Below, piece by piece: positions 12,313 to 20,461 of a stretch of DNA of 64,000 bases. The position numbers and the translations under genes are program-made. The DNA lies in NCBI RefSeq assembly GCF_020463795.1, contig NZ_CP080025.1, positions 2,725,501 through 2,789,500 on the forward strand, written 5' to 3'. Source of the DNA: Echinicola marina (GTDB lineage: Bacteria > Bacteroidota > Bacteroidia > Cytophagales > Cyclobacteriaceae). The notes beneath the pieces are model-generated. The model had not been told where the DNA came from and ran no database searches. It was given only the letters and a program-made list of their open reading frames with translations. Within the stretch, counting starts at the first letter, position 1, and every line of letters begins with the position of its first letter.

Positions 12313-13518
12313 ATGGCAGAGATAAGCAAAGAGGCAGGAATTTATCCCAAAGAAGCCTTGGCCAGGGTCAAAAGCTCTGATCATTCGATTTTGATAGGAT
12401 TGCCAAAGGAGAACGAGGTGGATGAAAAAAGAATGGTCCTTACGCCTGAGGCTGTGGCGTTGTTGGTGAATAATAACCAAAGGGTCATGGTGGAATCAGG
12501 GGCAGGAACCCCTTCCAAGTTTTCTGATAAGGAATATGCCGATGCAGGTGCAAAGGTAGTTTATTCATCCAAAGAGGCTTTTGAAGCAGAGGTGGTGCTG
12601 AAAGTTGAGCCACCCACATTGGAAGAGATTTCTTATATGAAACCGGGCAGTTGTTTGATTTCTGCATTACAGTTGGGGAAGCAAAAGGCCGAGTATATTC
12701 ATTCGCTAAACAAGAAAAAGATCACTGCAGTTTCATTTGAAAATTTGGAAGACAAAGTCGGAGGAATGCCCGTGGTACGGGCGATGAGTGAGATAGCAGG
12801 TAGTACGGTAATGCTAATTGCTTCGGAATATTTGAGCAGTGTAAAAAAAGGAGGAAAAGGATTGATATTAGGAGGTATCACAGGCGTGCCTCCTACCCAG
12901 GTGGTTATCGTAGGAGCGGGTACTGTCGCAGAGTATGCTGCAAGGACCGGGCTTGGATTAGGTGCCAGTATCAAAATTTTTGACAATCATTTGTATAAGC
13001 TGAGGCGGATAAAGCAGCTTTTGGGCCAGCAGGTATATACTTCCACGATAGATAACTTTACTTTGGGCGAAGCGCTAAAGGAAGCTGATGTGGTGATAGG
13101 AGCCTTAAGAGCTGAAAAAGGTAGAGCCAAGGTGGTGGTTTCAGAGGAGATGGTCGCAGCAATGATGCCCGGAAGTGTATTGATAGATGTTAGTATAGAT
13201 CAGGGGGGCTGTATAGAGACTTCTAGGATGACCACCCATGAAAAGCCTGCATATAACTTATACGATATTATTCATTACTGTGTACCCAATATTGCATCAC
13301 GGGTTTCCAGGACAGCTTCGGTTTCACTCAGTAATATTTTCACTCCCATTCTTTTGCAAATGGCCGATTTGGGAGGCGCCGAAGAAATGATTTTTAATTA
13401 TAAATGGTTTATGAAAGGGGTTTATACCTACAGGGGAAGTCTTACAAATGCTCACTTGGCTAGAAAGTTCCAAATGAACCATAAGGAACTCCAACTGTTA
13501 CTGGCGGCCAGGTATTAG
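12313..13518 (+). CDS. ald: Alanine dehydrogenase
   Basis: 401 residues from the ATG at 12313, which has GGGAG spaced 5 bases upstream; an ATG at 12301, inside the end of tsaE, would add four residues. The N-terminal AlaDH/PNT domain starts with IGLPKENEVDEKRMVLTPEAV. The Rossmann domain has VIVGAGTVAEYAARTGLGLGA (about 200-220). The segment VLIDVSIDQGGCIETSR and the final TYRGSLTN part are also typical. It interconverts alanine and pyruvate with NAD. Bacteroidota versions are longer at the N-terminus than the classic 370-residue enzyme. The 3' end overlaps the convergent response-regulator gene by 4 bases. Confidence 0.93.
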   Translation: MAEISKEAGIYPKEALARVKSSDHSILIGLPKENEVDEKRMVLTPEAVALLVNNNQRVMVESGAGTPSKFSDKEYADAGAKVVYSSKEAFEAEVVLKVEPPTLEEISYMKPGSCLISALQLGKQKAEYIHSLNKKKITAVSFENLEDKVGGMPVVRAMSEIAGSTVMLIASEYLSSVKKGGKGLILGGITGVPPTQVVIVGAGTVAEYAARTGLGLGASIKIFDNHLYKLRRIKQLLGQQVYTSTIDNFTLGEALKEADVVIGALRAEKGRAKVVVSEEMVAAMMPGSVLIDVSIDQGGCIETSRMTTHEKPAYNLYDIIHYCVPNIASRVSRTASVSLSNIFTPILLQMADLGGAEEMIFNYKWFMKGVYTYRGSLTNAHLARKFQMNHKELQLLLAARY

Positions 13519-13988
13519 GAAAGTAATTTTTGGCGCAATAGGAATTCCAATTGTTCATTGGCTTTGATAAGGTCATCGGTAAGTTTCTTGTTTTCCTTTC
13601 GCAAAGAGAAAACTTCGTAGGCGTTTTTGATGACCGTTTTCATATAGTCCTCTTCCCAGGGCTTGGTAAGGTAATGATAAACTTGTCCCTTATTGATCGC
13701 ATCAATTACGGCTTGAATATCAGTGTAACCTGTTAGTAGTATTCTGATGGGCTCGGGATAATCTGGGATAATGGACTCCAGGAATTCCACACCAGTTTCT
13801 TCCGGCATTCTTTGATCTGTGATGATAAGATCGATTTCCTTGGATTTTAAAATATCTCTTCCTTCATCAGCAGAAATGGCCAGATAAACTTTGTATTCAC
13901 GTCTAAAAGTAGCTTTAAATGCTTGAAGATTGTTTTCTTCATCATCTACATAAAGAATTCTTATTTTTTCTTTTGTCGAATCAGTCAT
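13515..13988 (-). CDS. Stand-alone response regulator (receiver domain)
   Basis: 157 residues: one receiver domain (about 9-128) plus a short coiled-coil tail. The acidic pair is at Asp15/Asp16 (YVDDEENN), the phospho-acceptor is Asp58 in ITDQRMPEETG, the Thr is in LLTGYTD and the Lys in YLTKPW. There is no output domain, so it must act by protein contact or phosphotransfer. Its receiver is strikingly similar to that of the receiver-kinase at 19317-20399 (DDEENNLQAFKATFRR versus DDEDNNLHSFKASLRR, both with DQRMP, both with VIDAINKG). It is divergent from that operon and likely part of the same circuit. Confidence 0.9.
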   Translation of the reverse strand: MTDSTKEKIRILYVDDEENNLQAFKATFRREYKVYLAISADEGRDILKSKEIDLIITDQRMPEETGVEFLESIIPDYPEPIRILLTGYTDIQAVIDAINKGQVYHYLTKPWEEDYMKTVIKNAYEVFSLRKENKKLTDDLIKANEQLEFLLRQKLLS

Positions 13989-14081: not shown

Positions 14082-14199
14082 TATCTAAAACTGTCATCTG
14101 TACTCAATTTAAGTAAATCTATTTAGAATTTTTAGTCCAATTTCGCATGATTTTTTTAGTTTTTTCATTTAATTACAAGGTCAATCATATAACTTTACT

Positions 14200-14233: not shown

Positions 14234-16504
14234 ATGGATTTGAATTATATAAAAGGGACGAATCCCAGTTGGGAGGCGATTATATTACCTGCGGCGCCAA
14301 TAAAAAAAGAGGAAATCCAACTTTTAGATGAACTGAAAAAAGATTCTACGGTAGAGAAATTTGATCAATTGGATGGGCAAATGGCTGAATTGATTAAAAT
14401 TAAGCATCCTAAGGATAACTTAAAAGACGGAGAGCTGGCGGTGATGGTAAAGGACTTTTTTAAACATCAGCCTAGAGAAGAGTATGGTTGTTGGGTGTAT
14501 TATCATTGGAGAAGGCAGTTGATAAGGACCTTGGATGAAGCAGATTTTATACAAGTAAGAACATCTAGGAACCAATATAAAATCACTAAAGAGGAACAGG
14601 ATTTACTGTCCACCAAAAAAATTGGGGTGATAGGATTGTCTGTTGGGCAAAGTGTTGCGTTAAGTTTGGCAATGGAGAGGAGCTTTGGGGAGTTGAGAAT
14701 CGCGGATTTTGACACCTTGGAGTTGAGTAATATGAACAGGATCCGGACGGGGATATACAATTTAGGATTGAAAAAGGCCTGGATGGTTTCCCGGGAAATA
14801 GCAGAGATTGATCCATTTCTGAAAGTGACAATTTTTGAGGAAGGAATTAATGATAGGAATATAGATGAATTTTTTGAAAAAGATGGTGCCTTAGATTTGT
14901 TAGTTGAGGAATGCGATAGCCTTGATGTAAAAATATTGGCCAGGGAAAAGGCCAGAGAAAAAGGAGTGCCTGTAGTAATGGATACCTCGGATAGGGGAAT
15001 GGTAGATGTAGAACGGTTTGATTTGGAGCCCAAGCGTCCTTTGTTACATGGTTTAGCAGGAAACTTGAAGTCTGAAGAGTTGAATAGCTTGTCGAATGAG
15101 GAGAAAGTGCCTTTTATAGGGAAAATGATCGGAATGGAAACGCTGTCTACAAGAATGAAAGCTTCATTTATGGAGGTGGGAACTTCTATCGGTACTTGGC
15201 CCCAGTTGGCCAGTTCTGTGATACACGGAGGGGCAGTCTGTGCAGATATAGTACGAAAGATATTTTTGGATCAATTCAGGGATTCCGGTAGGTATTATTT
15301 TGATTTTGATGAGGTATTGTATCATGGGCAAGATCAGCAAAGCAAAACTAGCGAGGTGCATGCCCCAAAAAGTGAGAAAAAACAGTTTATCCCTCAAGGT
15401 GAACTGAAATCTCCAAAAGTCCTGAGCAAATCGACTGTTTTGGAATTGGTCAAGAAAGCGAACCTGGCGCCTTCTGGTGGGAATTGCCAGCCATGGAAGT
15501 GGGTGTTTGATAAAGAAGGTGTGCTTCACCTTTTTTACGACAAGGGATTAAGTGAGTCTCTGTTGGATTATCATGGGACGGGGACCTTGATGGCATTGGG
15601 GGCGGCCTTAGAAAACTTGGTTTGGACAGGACATAATATGGGGCTAGGTGTCAAGATTAATTTTAATGAGTTAGAATTTGAAGATGACTATATCGCAAAA
15701 GTTACTTTTAGTGAAAATATAGCAGATGGAGAAGATACGCAATATGATTATTTATATCCATATATAGAAAAGAGGGTGACTAACCGTAAACTCGAGCAAG
15801 GAAAAGAAATAGCATCTTCCATATTAGAAGAACTTAGGAATATAGCTATTGACTCGGGCAATGGCATGGAGATGCTGACAGATCGTGGTCAGTTTGGTGA
15901 ACTGATTGAAGTTTTGGGAGTGATGGATAAGATTAGGGTGATGAATCCGAGGGGCTATGCCGATTTTGTAAGGGAAATAAGGTGGACAGAGAAAGAAACT
16001 ATTGAAACCAGGGACGGGATTGATATAGAAACACTTGAGCTTAAAAATACGGGAGTTGCGGCTCTTACCCTATTAAGGGATCATGAGGCTATCTCATTTT
16101 TGAAGAAAAATCAACTTGGTGACGGTCTGAAGGAAATGTCCAAGGACACCATTAATGCTTCCTCCGCTATCTGCTTGTTGACTGCAAAGGATTTTTCTCC
16201 TTATTCATATCTTAGGGGAGGAAAGGCCTTACAAAGAGTGTGGACACATATAAATAAAGAAGATGTGGCGTTTCAACCTATTTCTGCTTCATTATTTTTC
16301 TTTCACAGATTACAAAGGGAAGGGTTAAAGTACTTTTCTACAGAGGAAGGAGAAATCATCAAAGATGCACAAAGAAGGTTGAGGACTTTATTTAATTTAT
16401 CCCCTGATACAAATGAAGTGTTTTTGTTTAGGCTCACTACAGCTTCTGATGTTTCGATAAGGTCTTTAAGGAGAGATGTGTTGGATACAATAGCGTTTCT
16501 ATAA
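14234..16504 (+). CDS. ThiF (E1-like) - nitroreductase fusion, Rv1355c/MoeY family
   Basis: 756 residues in two parts. The E1-like domain (about 129-345) has the nucleotide loop GVIGLSVGQSVA (131-142), the NR pair of the adenylation site (N168, R169) and the lysine at NLGLKK. The nitroreductase-like flavin domain (about 400-750) starts with LVKKANLAPSGGNCQPW (405-421). The same fusion is known from Mycobacterium Rv1355c, annotated MoeY, a molybdopterin label that is not proven. E1-like plus FMN-oxidase chemistry also occurs in azole-forming peptide pathways. It is the first gene of an operon with an acyltransferase and two kinases, which suggests it makes or modifies a signal. No zinc CxxC pair is seen. 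Confidence 0.85.
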   Translation: MDLNYIKGTNPSWEAIILPAAPIKKEEIQLLDELKKDSTVEKFDQLDGQMAELIKIKHPKDNLKDGELAVMVKDFFKHQPREEYGCWVYYHWRRQLIRTLDEADFIQVRTSRNQYKITKEEQDLLSTKKIGVIGLSVGQSVALSLAMERSFGELRIADFDTLELSNMNRIRTGIYNLGLKKAWMVSREIAEIDPFLKVTIFEEGINDRNIDEFFEKDGALDLLVEECDSLDVKILAREKAREKGVPVVMDTSDRGMVDVERFDLEPKRPLLHGLAGNLKSEELNSLSNEEKVPFIGKMIGMETLSTRMKASFMEVGTSIGTWPQLASSVIHGGAVCADIVRKIFLDQFRDSGRYYFDFDEVLYHGQDQQSKTSEVHAPKSEKKQFIPQGELKSPKVLSKSTVLELVKKANLAPSGGNCQPWKWVFDKEGVLHLFYDKGLSESLLDYHGTGTLMALGAALENLVWTGHNMGLGVKINFNELEFEDDYIAKVTFSENIADGEDTQYDYLYPYIEKRVTNRKLEQGKEIASSILEELRNIAIDSGNGMEMLTDRGQFGELIEVLGVMDKIRVMNPRGYADFVREIRWTEKETIETRDGIDIETLELKNTGVAALTLLRDHEAISFLKKNQLGDGLKEMSKDTINASSAICLLTAKDFSPYSYLRGGKALQRVWTHINKEDVAFQPISASLFFFHRLQREGLKYFSTEEGEIIKDAQRRLRTLFNLSPDTNEVFLFRLTTASDVSIRSLRRDVLDTIAFL

Positions 16505-16505
16505 G

Positions 16506-17189
16506 ATGTTTATATTTAAAGCGTTCAGAGCAATTGATAATGAGGAGTTATGCCTTGAATTTTTGGAAGGACACTGGAATGTACTCAAAGAATATGGGGT
16601 GACGAAAGTCACTTCTGCTAGGAGAGATTGGATCAGTAACCCTCATGTTTATGTCATCGTGGTTATAGATGCTGAAGAGAAAAGAGTAGTGAGTGGAATG
16701 AGGCTTCACCTTGCCCATGAAGATTATCCGCTGCCTATGGAAACGGCCATTGCAGAGGTGGATAAAAGTATACATTGTGTGGTTGCGAATTATAGGGAGA
16801 ATATTACCGGTGAAATTGGTGGTTTGTGGAATTCAAGGTCGATTGCTGGCTATGGTATTGGTATTAAGTTTTTGATCCGTTGTGGAATAGTGTTGGCAGA
16901 ACAGCTTAAAATGGGGACATTGTTGGCTTTATGTGCAGAGCATACCTTAGGGTCCTGCTTGGATAAGGGATTTGAAATTGAAATGGGCGTAGGGAATTCT
17001 GGCAAGTTTAACTATCCGAAAATTGATTTGGTGGCTACTGCTGCTGTTATTAAAGATTTGGTCAATTTGCCATTGGCATTAGCGGAGGAAAGGGAAGAGA
17101 TTTTTAAACTGCGAAAGTCCTTGAATTGCGAGTCTGTGTATTCCACTTCCCGTGGGGAAATGCACATTAAGTACGAACTGGAATTATAA
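16506..17189 (+). CDS. GNAT-fold acyltransferase, autoinducer-synthase-like
   Basis: 227 residues, starting 1 base after the previous stop. The N-terminal half has SARRDWISNPHVYVIVVID and VVSGMRLHLAHEDYPLPMETAI. The central GEIGGLWNSRSIAGYGIG is followed by a long helix and a strand ending in LGSCLDKGFEIE. This layout (a glutamate before GLW, a Gly-rich turn, then an IRC..LAEQLKMG helix) resembles the N-acyl amino acid synthase / LuxI / PEP-CTERM acyltransferase group of GNAT-fold enzymes, which move acyl groups from ACP or CoA to an amine. No substrate can be named. Tight packing between the MoeY-like gene and a sensor kinase suggests joint function. Family placement is moderate. Confidence 0.65.
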   Translation: MFIFKAFRAIDNEELCLEFLEGHWNVLKEYGVTKVTSARRDWISNPHVYVIVVIDAEEKRVVSGMRLHLAHEDYPLPMETAIAEVDKSIHCVVANYRENITGEIGGLWNSRSIAGYGIGIKFLIRCGIVLAEQLKMGTLLALCAEHTLGSCLDKGFEIEMGVGNSGKFNYPKIDLVATAAVIKDLVNLPLALAEEREEIFKLRKSLNCESVYSTSRGEMHIKYELEL

Positions 17190-17200
17190 ATATATCAATT

Positions 17201-19327
17201 ATGGCAGGTGTTTTTGGGTTTGTAATGACCCTTTTGCTCAGTATAATGAACCTTGATCAAGATATAAACTTGATCAATTCAGAGAATGCCAAAATAAATA
17301 AAATTTATTATCAAGAGTTTTCTGAGCAAGATAACCCTGGAATTGATCAACTGGTTGGGAACACGCAGTTTAACCGAAGGGAGGGCTTTGCCCCTAATTT
17401 TGGTGTAAACAATGATGTGGTGTGGATTAAATTCTATGTTAAGAATCAGGGCGCTGGAATGGACCAATTTTTAGTTATAGATAATCCTTCTTTGGACGAA
17501 ATAGAGTATTATTTGTTTGAATCAGGGGATTTGGTCGATAAGGGTATAAAGGGAAGGGGATTTAGAGAGAAGAATAATGACCAATCTTCATCAGGTTATA
17601 TTCTTCCTTTACAGTTGGAAAGGGATTTAGAATATACGATCTACCTCAAAGTAAAGAGTTTTGAGAAGAAAGTGCTGCCGATGAAAATAATGCCGGAAAT
17701 TGAAGTTTTAAAAGAAGTAAAGAGGGAGGATGTGTATTTTGGCGTTTTTTCTGGGATTTTTATTGGCCTGCTATTTTATAATTTATTCCTTTATTTTTCA
17801 TTAAGGGATAGGGCTTATCTTTTGTATGTGTTTCATACTGTATTTGTGTGGTTGGCTCAATCATCCATAATGGGATATACCCAAGAGATACTATGGCCTG
17901 AATGGGATTGGATTCATTCCAGGGCAAATATGTTTTTTTCATCAGCTGTAAGTATTGTAGGGATACTTTTTCTCAAAGAGTTTCTTAATACAAAAAAGTT
18001 TGTACCCAGGCTAGACCGTGGTTTGAGGGTGTTTTTCCTGATATATCCTCTTATAGTGCTTTTGGCTATCCTAGGGCATCAAACATTGAGTTATAATGTG
18101 CTGATTTTTACCCAGTCTATAATTGTTTGGTATATTATGCTGATAGGTATTCAGGTCAATAGAGAAGGTTACAGACCCGCAAGGTATTATTTGTTGGCAT
18201 GGTCATTCTTTATGTTGGGGATTTTTCTTTTTGTAATCCGAGATATGGGGCTGATCCCATACAATATGTTTTCTGCTTATGTTATGCCTGTAGGTTCAGT
18301 ATTGGAAGTGATTTTACTTTCTTTGGCATTGGCAGATAAAATCAACGTGCTTAAAGTTGAAAAAGAAGAGGAACAGCAGAAAACCCTTAATGCTATAAAA
18401 GAAAATGAAAGGTTAATCAGAGAACAGAATGTTATTTTGGAGGAAAAGGTTAAATTGAGGACTGAGGAGTTAGAAAAAACGCTGAATAATCTTCAAAATA
18501 CACAAACCCAATTGGTCAATCAGGAAAAAATGGCTTCATTGGGACAGTTGACTGCAGGAATTGCACATGAGATCAATAATCCGATCAATTTTGTCAGTTC
18601 TAATGTATCTCCATTGAAAAGGGATATCAAGGACATCCTTGAGATTGTGGATGCTTACAGGGAAAAAGGTAGTTCAGAGTTTTCCAAGAAAACCCTTGAG
18701 GAATTGCAAGAACTTGAGGAAGATCTTGAATATGATTATTTAATAGAGGAAATAGGTTTATTGTTAAAGGGGATGGAAGATGGAGCAAAGAGAACCGTTG
18801 AAATTGTCAAAGGCTTAAGGTTGTTCTCTAGGGTAGATGAACAAGATGTGAAGAAGGTGGATTTGCATGATGGTATCAACAGTACTTTGGTGTTATTGAA
18901 CAGTACCATGGGGAAAATCGAAGTGAAAAAAGAATATGGCAATATACCCATGGTAGAATGTTTGGCTGGTAAGATCAACCAGGTATTCATGAATATAATA
19001 AGCAATGCGATTCAGGCTTTGGGAGAGCAAGGGAGTGAAAACCCCTCTCCTGAGATTTTAATAAAAACAATGTCCCAAAATGGGGAGGTGATTTTGGAAA
19101 TAGGAGACAATGGTCCTGGTATGCCGGAACATGTTCGAGAGAGAATTTTTGAACCCTTTTTTACAACTAAGGCAGTAGGGAAAGGTACCGGTTTGGGCTT
19201 GTCTATTGTTTATAAGATAATCGAAAACCACCAAGGTAGATTAGATGTGCATACGTCTCCTGGGGAAGGAACTAAGTTTGTGATCAAGTTACCTGTATAT
19301 CAAAAACAACCTAACAATGAGCAGTAA
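17201..19327 (+). CDS. 7TMR-DISM sensor histidine kinase
   Basis: 708 residues. A signal-anchor stretch (about 1-17) precedes an extracytoplasmic 7TMR-DISMED2-like sensor domain (about 30-165, with [11 protein letters not shown] and [17 protein letters not shown]). Next come seven predicted membrane helices (about 177-385), a coiled coil (385-440), and the dimerisation/phosphoacceptor domain with His456 in [10 protein letters not shown]. The HATPase has N ([11 protein letters not shown]), G1 ([10 protein letters not shown]) and G2 ([11 protein letters not shown]) boxes. DISMED2 domains resemble carbohydrate-binding sandwiches and are thought to bind small ligands. The gene starts 11 bases after the acyltransferase and overlaps the next by 11 bases, so it probably passes phosphate to that gene's receiver. 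Confidence 0.95.
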
Positions 19328-20399
19328 AATTCATGTTTTATATTTGGATGATGAGGATAATAATTTACACTCTTTTAAAGCCAGCTTAAGAAGAGATTTT
19401 AAAATTTTTACAGCGCTGAATGCAGAAGAAGGTTTAGAACTGGCGCAGAATAATGAAGTTCATGTTGTTATTGCTGACCAGAGAATGCCAGGGATGACTG
19501 GGGTGGAATTTTTTGAGAAATTGGTAAAAATTAAGCCAGACCCAATACGGATTTTACTGACAGGCTACTCAGATATAGCCAGCGTAATAGATGCCATTAA
19601 TAAAGGAGAGGTATATAGGTTTATCGACAAACCGTGGAATATTGAACAAATTAAAAATGCCATCAAAACTGCCGCAGATATCTACTTCACCAGGAAGGAA
19701 CTCAAGGAGAAGAATCAGCGATTGAAGAAAATGCATTCAGAGATGAACCAGTTTGTGTATAGTTTGTCCCACGAACTTAGAGGGCCTCTGATGAGCATTT
19801 CGGGTGTTTCCAAATTGGCTAAAATGGAATGCGCTGATCAACGTATATTAGAGTATTTTGAAATGATCGATTCGGCTACTTTTAAGTTGGACGATTTTAT
19901 TTACAAAATGCTCGACTTTTACCGTTCCACTAAAATCGACAATGTAATAACATCTATAGATTTCAATGAATTGTTGGAACAGCAGTGCGAAGCTTATAAC
20001 AATAAATGGGATCTCAGTGATATCCAACTGGAAATAAATATACAACAAGAGGAGGAGTTTGAATCAGATGAGGCAAAACTTCGGGTGATCTTCAATAATC
20101 TTTTTAGCAATGCCTTTAAATTCCAGCAGGAGGGTAATCCTGATAAATTTATTAAGGTGGACGTGCAGGTTCAAGATGGAAAGGCTATCATAGAGGTGGC
20201 TGATAATGGCATCGGTATAGATGAGAAGTACCAAAGTGAAGTATTTGAATTATTTCACAGGGCTACACAGAAAAATGTGGGAGCAGGGATAGGTTTATAT
20301 ATGGTAAAGGAGTCTGTAGAACAGCTGAAGGGGGATATAGAATTGAATTCTGCGGTAGGAGGAGGGACTTCCTTCAAAATCACCATTCCTTCTTTATAG
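19317..20399 (+). CDS. Receiver - histidine kinase hybrid
   Basis: 360 residues. The N-terminal receiver (about 5-125) has the acidic pair Asp11/Asp12, phospho-acceptor Asp54 in IADQRMPG, LLTGYSD and FIDKPW. A linker helix (about 125-145) leads to a HisKA domain with His152 in SLSHELRGPL and an HATPase with NNLFSNAFKF and ADNGIGIDEKY. It is soluble. With the receiver first, the upstream membrane kinase can phosphorylate it, and it may then phosphorylate a further regulator such as the lone receiver at 13515-13988. It is the last gene of the operon and is followed by a strong bidirectional terminator. Confidence 0.93.
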   Translation: MSSKIHVLYLDDEDNNLHSFKASLRRDFKIFTALNAEEGLELAQNNEVHVVIADQRMPGMTGVEFFEKLVKIKPDPIRILLTGYSDIASVIDAINKGEVYRFIDKPWNIEQIKNAIKTAADIYFTRKELKEKNQRLKKMHSEMNQFVYSLSHELRGPLMSISGVSKLAKMECADQRILEYFEMIDSATFKLDDFIYKMLDFYRSTKIDNVITSIDFNELLEQQCEAYNNKWDLSDIQLEINIQQEEEFESDEAKLRVIFNNLFSNAFKFQQEGNPDKFIKVDVQVQDGKAIIEVADNGIGIDEKYQSEVFELFHRATQKNVGAGIGLYMVKESVEQLKGDIELNSAVGGGTSFKITIPSL

Positions 20400-20422
20400 C
20401 AAAAGGAAAAAAGAAGGATAGT

Positions 20423-20458
20423 AAAAAAGGAGCTCACCATATGGTGAACTCCTTTTTT
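20423..20458. terminator. Bidirectional terminator
   Basis: A 16-bp inverted repeat with one mismatch (AAAAAAGGAGCTCACC / GGTGAACTCCTTTTTT) and a 4-base loop lies between the convergent ends of the receiver-kinase gene and the SIMPL gene. It has U-rich tails in both directions. Confidence 0.9.
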
Positions 20459-20461
20459 ACA

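Follow-up and report, generated by a model that had tools for sequence, protein, structure and literature searches.

A conserved Bacteroidota operon as a candidate synthase-receptor unit for small-molecule signalling

The stretch of DNA analysed here (hereafter the window) comprises 64,000 nucleotides of Echinicola marina, a member of the family Cyclobacteriaceae (contig NZ_CP080025.1, forward-strand positions 2,725,501 to 2,789,500), and includes an operon of four plus-strand open reading frames (ORFs) that are separated by gaps of 1 and 11 bases followed by an 11-base overlap (Table 1). They encode, in this order, a ThiF-nitroreductase fusion, a GNAT-fold acyltransferase, a sensor histidine kinase of the 7TMR-DISM type and a receiver-kinase. 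A sequence-only reading of the window had proposed this packing and order, and both were confirmed, the former by the coordinates and the ORF list, the latter by Pfam and NCBIfam profiles together with a structure model of the acyltransferase. The divergent gene for a solo receiver, missing from that reading, is likewise a conserved part of the unit. The operon exists as described, is conserved and occurs widely; it is considered here as a candidate for a self-contained unit of small-molecule synthesis and perception.

Table 1. Positions within the window of the operon genes and of the elements around them.
Feature	Position	Strand	Size and basis
ThiF-like cyclase fused to nitroreductase-fold flavin oxidase, Rv1355c/TrzS family	14234..16504	+	756 aa; NF005901, 782 bits
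GNAT-fold N-acyltransferase, probable N-acyl amino acid synthase	16506..17189	+	227 aa; AlphaFold, Foldseek
7TMR-DISM sensor histidine kinase	17201..19327	+	708 aa; Pfam; sensor residues 1 to ~370, kinase ~440-708
Switch from exchanged sensor to constant kinase	18290..18316	+	residues 364-372, in TM7; cross-type pairs, DNA profile
REC-HisKA-HATPase receiver-kinase	19317..20399	+	360 aa; Pfam
Solo receiver (REC) protein, divergent from the operon	13515..13988	-	157 aa; PF00072, 67 bits
Promoter-like element TAACTTTAC	14190..14198	+	conserved upstream of the operon
Terminator-like hairpin 3' of the operon	20421..20460	.	18-pair stem, 4-base loop

The fusion protein matched the NCBIfam family NF005901 ('Rv1355c family') over its full length, with 782 bits against a cut-off of 476. 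It carries a ThiF domain (PF00899, 59.7 bits), and the nitroreductase domain (PF00881) that follows scored 20.9 bits, below the Pfam cut-off of 23.5. In excerpts of the report on the Mycobacterium tuberculosis member, TrzS, the ThiF domain is described as cyclising N-acyl tryptophan with ATP, after which the flavin domain desaturates the product, and the partner TrzA as making the N-acyl amino acid (PMC12856293). The residues mutated and tested in M. smegmatis TrzS according to the same excerpts, D217, R540 and Q651, correspond to D228, R568 and Q681 of the window protein, as mapped via a Mycolicibacterium plasmid homologue with the M. smegmatis numbering matched by residue spacing. All three were invariant in 20 of 20 aligned fusions, and D228 was retained in all 66 ThiF proteins of the family. 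Related acyl-oxazolone pathways are TyzACB and OxzAB (PMC10404671, in excerpt), and the N-acyl dehydrotyrosine clusters carry the same three enzymes (PMC12479983, in excerpt). A plasmid protein of Nitratidesulfovibrio combines FeeM, ThiF and nitroreductase domains in a single chain, and enzymes of these kinds are therefore employed jointly in other bacteria as well. Since the tested relative of the first enzyme is TrzS of acyl-oxazolone biosynthesis, the enzyme half of the operon is of a known kind with TrzAS-like chemistry; the MoeY-like E1/nitroreductase fusion of the sequence-only reading stood as a domain fusion, with its relationship moved to the oxazolone pathway.

Two plasmid relatives of the fusion showed features of their own. 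A ThiF protein of Streptomyces sp. NBC_01431 (L278:5131-8045), whose gene adjoins one for a beta-ketoacyl-ACP synthase, had a sub-threshold N-terminal match to an acetyltransferase in Pfam; this N-terminal part was rejected as a GNAT relative, having no match to the profile of the window acyltransferase. The Rv1355c-family gene on a plasmid of Rhodococcus qingshengii (L280:2820-6968) has a GGDEF gene in its vicinity, as c-di-GMP genes are said to adjoin trzAS in M. tuberculosis (PMC12856293, in excerpt).

The acyltransferase found no counterpart in Pfam or NCBIfam (E ≤ 1) or among PDB sequences (E ≤ 10). Its AlphaFold model (pLDDT 92.5, from an alignment of 54 relatives) suggests a GNAT fold of the FeeM/LuxI type: the best PDB E-value in Foldseek belonged to the acyl-homoserine-lactone synthase BjaI (4.8e-7), and the FeeM chain 2g0b_A (TMq 0.65, TMt 0.77) had the highest query-normalised TM-score (TMq) among the best 50 matches listed, with ordinary GNAT acetyltransferases matching as well. 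The resemblance to N-acyl amino acid synthases and LuxI proposed earlier was thus borne out by structure prediction. Judged by this predicted fold, an amino acid N-acyltransferase adjoins the cyclase, and the protein is a probable N-acyl amino acid synthase. Two actinobacterial comparisons were discarded: the TrzA-like gene of Rhodococcus reached only 7.1 bits (hhalign 26%), and the gene 3' of a Mycolicibacterium TrzS-like gene was no relative of the acyltransferase. In one locus (L149, genome G1004) the genes for the ThiF-nitroreductase protein and the sensor kinase flank two tandem GNAT genes.

The product of the third gene exceeded the Pfam cut-offs for DISMED2 (PF07696, 65.7 bits), 7TMR-DISM_7TM (PF07695, 177.6 bits) and HATPase (PF02518), with HisKA sub-threshold, and is thereby a 7TMR-DISM sensor kinase. 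The model of its sensor part (pLDDT 90.9) gives the outer domain as a RetS-like sandwich. After RetS, the sensor model (17201-18400) also found human Wntless, a lipid-handling membrane protein, with an E-value of about 1e-4 and a TM score of only about 0.3. Of the 73 family loci with at least one operon kinase or enzyme, 69 had the receiver-kinase; in L024, L043, L045 and L046 its gene does not follow the sensor kinase. Among the 78 family loci, 77 have a gene of the solo-receiver class next to the operon, as do most loci outside the family, many of the latter having, after the receiver-kinase, an extra receiver-only gene of about 130-140 codons (scanned examples: L131:12163-12588, L132:12726-13136 and L135:3389-3790). 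Pfam found no DNA-binding output domain in the operon; a LuxR-type receptor domain was missing both there and from the neighbouring genes scanned, and a LuxI/LuxR system was rejected for lack of the receptor.

Relatives of the acyltransferase were present in 28 of 118 Cyclobacteriaceae genomes (the family in all that follows), and 25 of them occupy one setting, with the ThiF and kinase genes, between AlaDH plus the solo receiver on one side and PPase on the other. The three others (28-30% identity) were unlinked to a ThiF or 7TM kinase gene. They adjoin an FAD-binding oxidase of 519-529 residues, with a PAS histidine kinase near (L028:9406-11712, L029:9498-11702, L030:7747-10299), perhaps as another acyl-product system, and were dropped from all tree, cluster and correlation counts. 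Selection on the acyltransferase itself was avoided by anchoring the loci on the neighbouring AlaDH, found in 282 of 295 genomes; the resulting family set consists of 78 listed loci with at least 71% AlaDH identity (25 already known from the acyltransferase search) and seven more distant ones, in which no operon was seen (two of the seven stretches being short). The acyltransferase was present in 67 of the 78 loci, and all 67 had the sensor kinase, split in two ORFs in G020.

In the class as a whole, 76 of 395 genomes had the acyltransferase. The set outside the family comprised 65 of 71 such genomes plus one locus from another class, six genomes of genus g257 (G977, G884, G960, G688, G942, G993) being left out. 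Acyltransferase and sensor kinase occurred together in 62 of these 66 loci, with different neighbours and, in several loci of families f4 and f5, in the order GNAT-ThiF-kinase. The exceptions are L159, at a contig edge, L194 and L196, without a kinase, and L151, where ThiF and kinase genes enclose a GNAT match, though it was not counted among the 62. A second scan, with the fusion against GTDB contigs, found the sensor kinase in 74 of the best 80 of 564 relatives; the remainder are three contig ends (L199, L215, L245), a short contig of a metagenome-assembled genome (L275) and loci of Cohnella and Blastocatellia, outside the phylum by title. In a phylum sample of 395 genomes the full fusion exceeded its family cut-off in only 5, and no relative was found in the viral contigs searched. 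The gene-neighbourhood comparison suggested earlier thus gave linkage of the enzymes and the 7TM kinase in Bacteroidota; outside the phylum, actinobacteria included, the few loci examined were without this kinase, and the plasmid loci of Mycolicibacterium, Rhodococcus, Streptomyces and Nitratidesulfovibrio had no annotated kinase beside them. Being linked within the phylum and missing at the loci examined outside it, the kinase appears to be the partner of the enzymes in Bacteroidota.

The comparison of close relatives showed that the sensor changes together with the acyltransferase. The window and its congener G121 share 93% identity in the kinase part, 93% in the receiver-kinase and 96% in AlaDH, but only 41% in the acyltransferase, 34% in the 7TM part and 18% in the outer domain (ECD), and G121 has no oxidase domain. 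Likewise, the Algoriphagus genomes G266 and G242 are 96% identical in the kinase part and 77% in ThiF, but 47%, 36% and 18% in the acyltransferase, 7TM part and ECD. DNA identity between the window and G121 falls in the middle of the ThiF gene (around 14950) and recovers around 18400, and between G266 and G242 it is low from the start of the acyltransferase gene to near the end of the 7TM part; from the latter profile, the smallest exchanged unit seen is acyltransferase plus sensor. In 66 of 66 cross-type pairs (kinase identity at least 80%, AlaDH at least 78%; the pairs are non-independent) the switch lies at residues 364-372 of the sensor kinase, with 19-30% identity before and 79-96% after it. 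Paralogous 7TM proteins of the two genome pairs described above served as a control: their five orthologous pairs, 79-98% identical overall, had no such step, one of them being at 53-78% in the first three segments compared.

Independent cuts of each distance matrix into three clusters gave identical groups (45, 7 and 13 loci) for acyltransferase, 7TM part and ECD in 65 of 65 complete loci (G020, with its split kinase, and G271, with ThiF in two ORFs, excluded), and the clusters of the kinase part and ThiF differed from this grouping. The concordance of acyltransferase and sensor types is thus complete, with few independent switches. On the best backbone tree (67 typed loci, excluding G038, which has no solo receiver) the types require at least 10 changes. 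When only supported branches are considered and each type is taken singly, the forced changes number 3 for type 1, 5 for type 2 and 6 for type 3. The minimum was 9 on the kinase tree, 9 on that of the receiver-kinase (61 loci), 6 on ThiF and 2 each on ECD, 7TM and acyltransferase, the last by construction, as the types were defined on it. All trees were quick ones, built without the mixture model; in the sensor tree with the solo receptors added, long branches come together. With backbone distance controlled, the partial correlation with the acyltransferase was 0.92 for the 7TM part, 0.74 for the ECD, 0.60 for ThiF and -0.02 for the kinase part (61 loci, four more without a receiver-kinase being dropped). 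Supported branches gave 4, 5 and 5 independent pairs by type, in all of which the 7TM part follows the acyltransferase.

The enzyme in the cyclase position varies as well. Of 65 complete family loci, 20 have the oxidase domain and the other 45 a ThiF gene that lacks it, so that the fusion is the minority form. Of 62 partner positions outside the family, 33 hold cyclase plus oxidase, 19 cyclase alone, nine another enzyme and one nothing. Six of the nine other enzymes were scanned with Pfam and all were methyltransferases: four of class I (Methyltransf_25/31/11), one ICMT and one Methyltransf_2 with a dimerisation domain; the other three resemble class I methyltransferases by sequence. Examples in the ThiF position are L163:6703-7344, L181:891-1955 and L152:5967-6737. 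Tailoring enzymes in the cyclase slot are interchangeable and include methyltransferases of three families. ICMT enzymes methylate carboxyl groups, and the shared logic may be that a ring or a methyl ester caps the carboxylate of the N-acyl amino acid and so makes the molecule neutral.

Upstream of the operon, TAACTTTAC was conserved in 11 of 11 Echinicola loci in the alignment and TANNTTTAC in 14 of 15 aligned Algoriphagus loci. Both are promoter-like, short of proof, and TAACTTTAC resembles a Bacteroidota promoter. The motif TAnnTTTG was set aside, as it occurred in the window at the frequency expected by chance. The earlier claim of a single promoter agrees with these conserved elements, although conservation does not prove it.

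The interpretation that we prefer, with a probability of about 0.62, is that the operon is a self-contained synthase-receptor unit for small-molecule signalling. The acyltransferase would acylate an amino acid at its amino group. Using ATP, the ThiF domain would activate the free carboxylate and close an oxazolone ring, which the flavin domain would then desaturate. The neutral product would leave the cell or partition into the envelope, the DISMED2/7TM part of the kinase encoded by the adjacent gene would detect it, and the kinase would signal via the receiver-kinase and the solo receiver. Least certain of all these steps is that the signal acts from cell to cell and not inside a single cell. 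A signal-making and sensing operon had been proposed before; the linkage, the modelled fold and the covariation of acyltransferase and sensor speak for that proposal, and its enzyme half proved to be of an already known kind.

Several observations weigh against this interpretation. The nearest structure to the outer domain is RetS (3jyb, TMt 0.80), and since carbohydrate-binding modules are among the weaker Foldseek matches, the ligand of the sensor could be a glycan. The window acyltransferase did not match the Pfam FeeM family (PF21926), and one of its 54 relatives did so at E 0.0021 and 18.3 bits, against a cut-off of 27; the protein is claimed to work like FeeM and is not a member of Pfam FeeM by score. 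Six of the 78 family loci carry both kinases without the enzymes (five carry neither). Over 180 same-type pairs the sensor averaged 44% identity and the kinase part 83%, so the sensor evolves fast anyway, and with 4, 5 and 5 independent pairs the sign test cannot fall below 0.06. Outside the family the partial correlation with the acyltransferase was 0.52 for the 7TM part and 0.24 for the kinase part (41 loci), and the enzyme make-up tracks no domain tree cleanly, with 13 changes on the acyltransferase, 14 on ECD, 11 on 7TM, 16 on kinase and 16 on receiver trees (103 of 125 loci, one without a tailoring enzyme and 21 without a receiver gene being dropped); coarse make-up was accordingly set aside as a weak class-wide predictor of the sensor clade. 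Finally, neighbouring genes can be exchanged jointly by recombination without a functional tie.

This last point is the core of one rival explanation, in which recombination tracts ending in the conserved ThiF and kinase regions swap everything between them, acyltransferase and sensor types agree through adjacency alone, and the sensor binds an unrelated ligand. The exchanged stretch is indeed contiguous and flanked by similar DNA, the independent switches are few, and sensors diverge fast regardless; yet there were zero mismatches in 65 loci, the linkage survives other gene orders and neighbours, and the paralogous 7TM proteins of the same genomes lack the step, which makes such hitchhiking quite improbable in our view. 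Somewhat easier to accept, though still unlikely, is that the product is an antimicrobial, a stress compound or an envelope lipid and that the kinase regulates the pathway, turning production on when it senses an envelope or environmental cue, and is no receptor for the product. Related N-acyl tyrosines are antimicrobial and oxazolones are antibiotic-induced in proteobacteria, as excerpts of PMC12856293 have it, sensor loci without enzymes occur, and the outer domain is both RetS-like and like carbohydrate-binding modules; a sensor type that changes with the acyltransferase over a constant kinase part goes unpredicted here. There is very little to be said for a role of the ThiF-nitroreductase protein in a molybdopterin, other cofactor or peptide pathway with an incidental acyltransferase. 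Weaker MoeB/ThiF profile matches and the name MoeY would favour it, but the Rv1355c family is by far the best match and is represented in M. tuberculosis by TrzS (PMC12856293, in excerpt), so that a molybdopterin or thiamine role was rejected; Pfam found no molybdopterin gene among the neighbours scanned (precursor peptides were not searched for), and the acyltransferase adjoins the ThiF protein throughout.

The synthase-receptor interpretation can be extended to a family of systems across the Bacteroidota, a generalisation to which we give an even chance. Its members would make N-acyl amino acids capped at the carboxylate by the ThiF oxazolone reaction or by three methyltransferase families and sense them with the 7TMR-DISM kinase encoded alongside; swaps of the acyltransferase-sensor cassette at TM7 would create 'dialects', and some lineages would keep the receptor only. 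The six enzyme-free loci, L060-L064 of genus g64 and L066 of G026, have 7TM parts nearest type 3 and could be receptors without a synthase. Small ORFs 5' of the kinase in the five g64 loci were rejected as signal genes: they look spurious, four of the five having little more than their first residues in common.

What is new is the Bacteroidota-wide linkage of the enzymes with a 7TM kinase, the match of acyltransferase and sensor types and the presence of methyltransferases in the cyclase slot. A dedicated sensor, joint exchange of synthase and sensor, and interchangeable tailoring enzymes appeared in none of the open-licence papers listed by the literature searches, as covered by titles and abstract openings. 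If the interpretation holds, the operon would be a synthase-receptor system for small molecules that has a receptor class of its own; we know of none in Bacteroidota, and none appeared among the papers listed. It offers a candidate receptor that is genetically tied to its synthase, natural type variants and a precise boundary for chimeras, which makes the ligand-receptor question directly testable in culturable bacteria.

Among known systems, TrzAS (Rv1356c-Rv1355c), OxzAB and TyzACB share the ThiF cyclase and flavin oxidase (fused in TrzS) with an adjacent acyltransferase, as far as the excerpts of PMC12856293 and PMC10404671 go, and TrzAS also the NCBIfam family and the mapped catalytic residues. 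The Echinicola operon differs from TrzAS by adding the 7TMR-DISM kinase, receiver-kinase and solo receiver and by an acyltransferase of only remotely similar sequence; in 45 of the 65 family loci the oxidase is lacking as well, and M. tuberculosis trzAS is said to have c-di-GMP genes for neighbours instead. The stieleriacine and N-acyl dehydrotyrosine clusters also bring acyltransferase, ThiF and nitroreductase genes together; the excerpts of PMC12479983 name no sensor kinase and describe a methyltransferase as additional, whereas in relatives of the present operon it replaces ThiF. With LuxI/LuxR the likeness may lie in the GNAT-type synthase fold, BjaI being the best Foldseek match, and a membrane kinase stands in place of the LuxR receptor. 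The sensor half of ComP varies with the signal and its kinase half is constant, and ComQXPA of Bacillus is by analogy the nearest known pattern. There, too, maker and sensor kinase are encoded together, the comQ types are polymorphic and incongruent with the housekeeping tree, and pherotypes respond within groups (PMC4408185, in excerpt). However, ComX is a modified peptide, whereas the present operon combines acyltransferase/cyclase chemistry with a 7TMR-DISM receptor and has no DNA-binding response regulator. Finally, receptors of the RetS type share the DISMED2 plus 7TM architecture, and the sensor described here differs from them in being encoded with a synthase and in having its sensor part exchanged along with that synthase.

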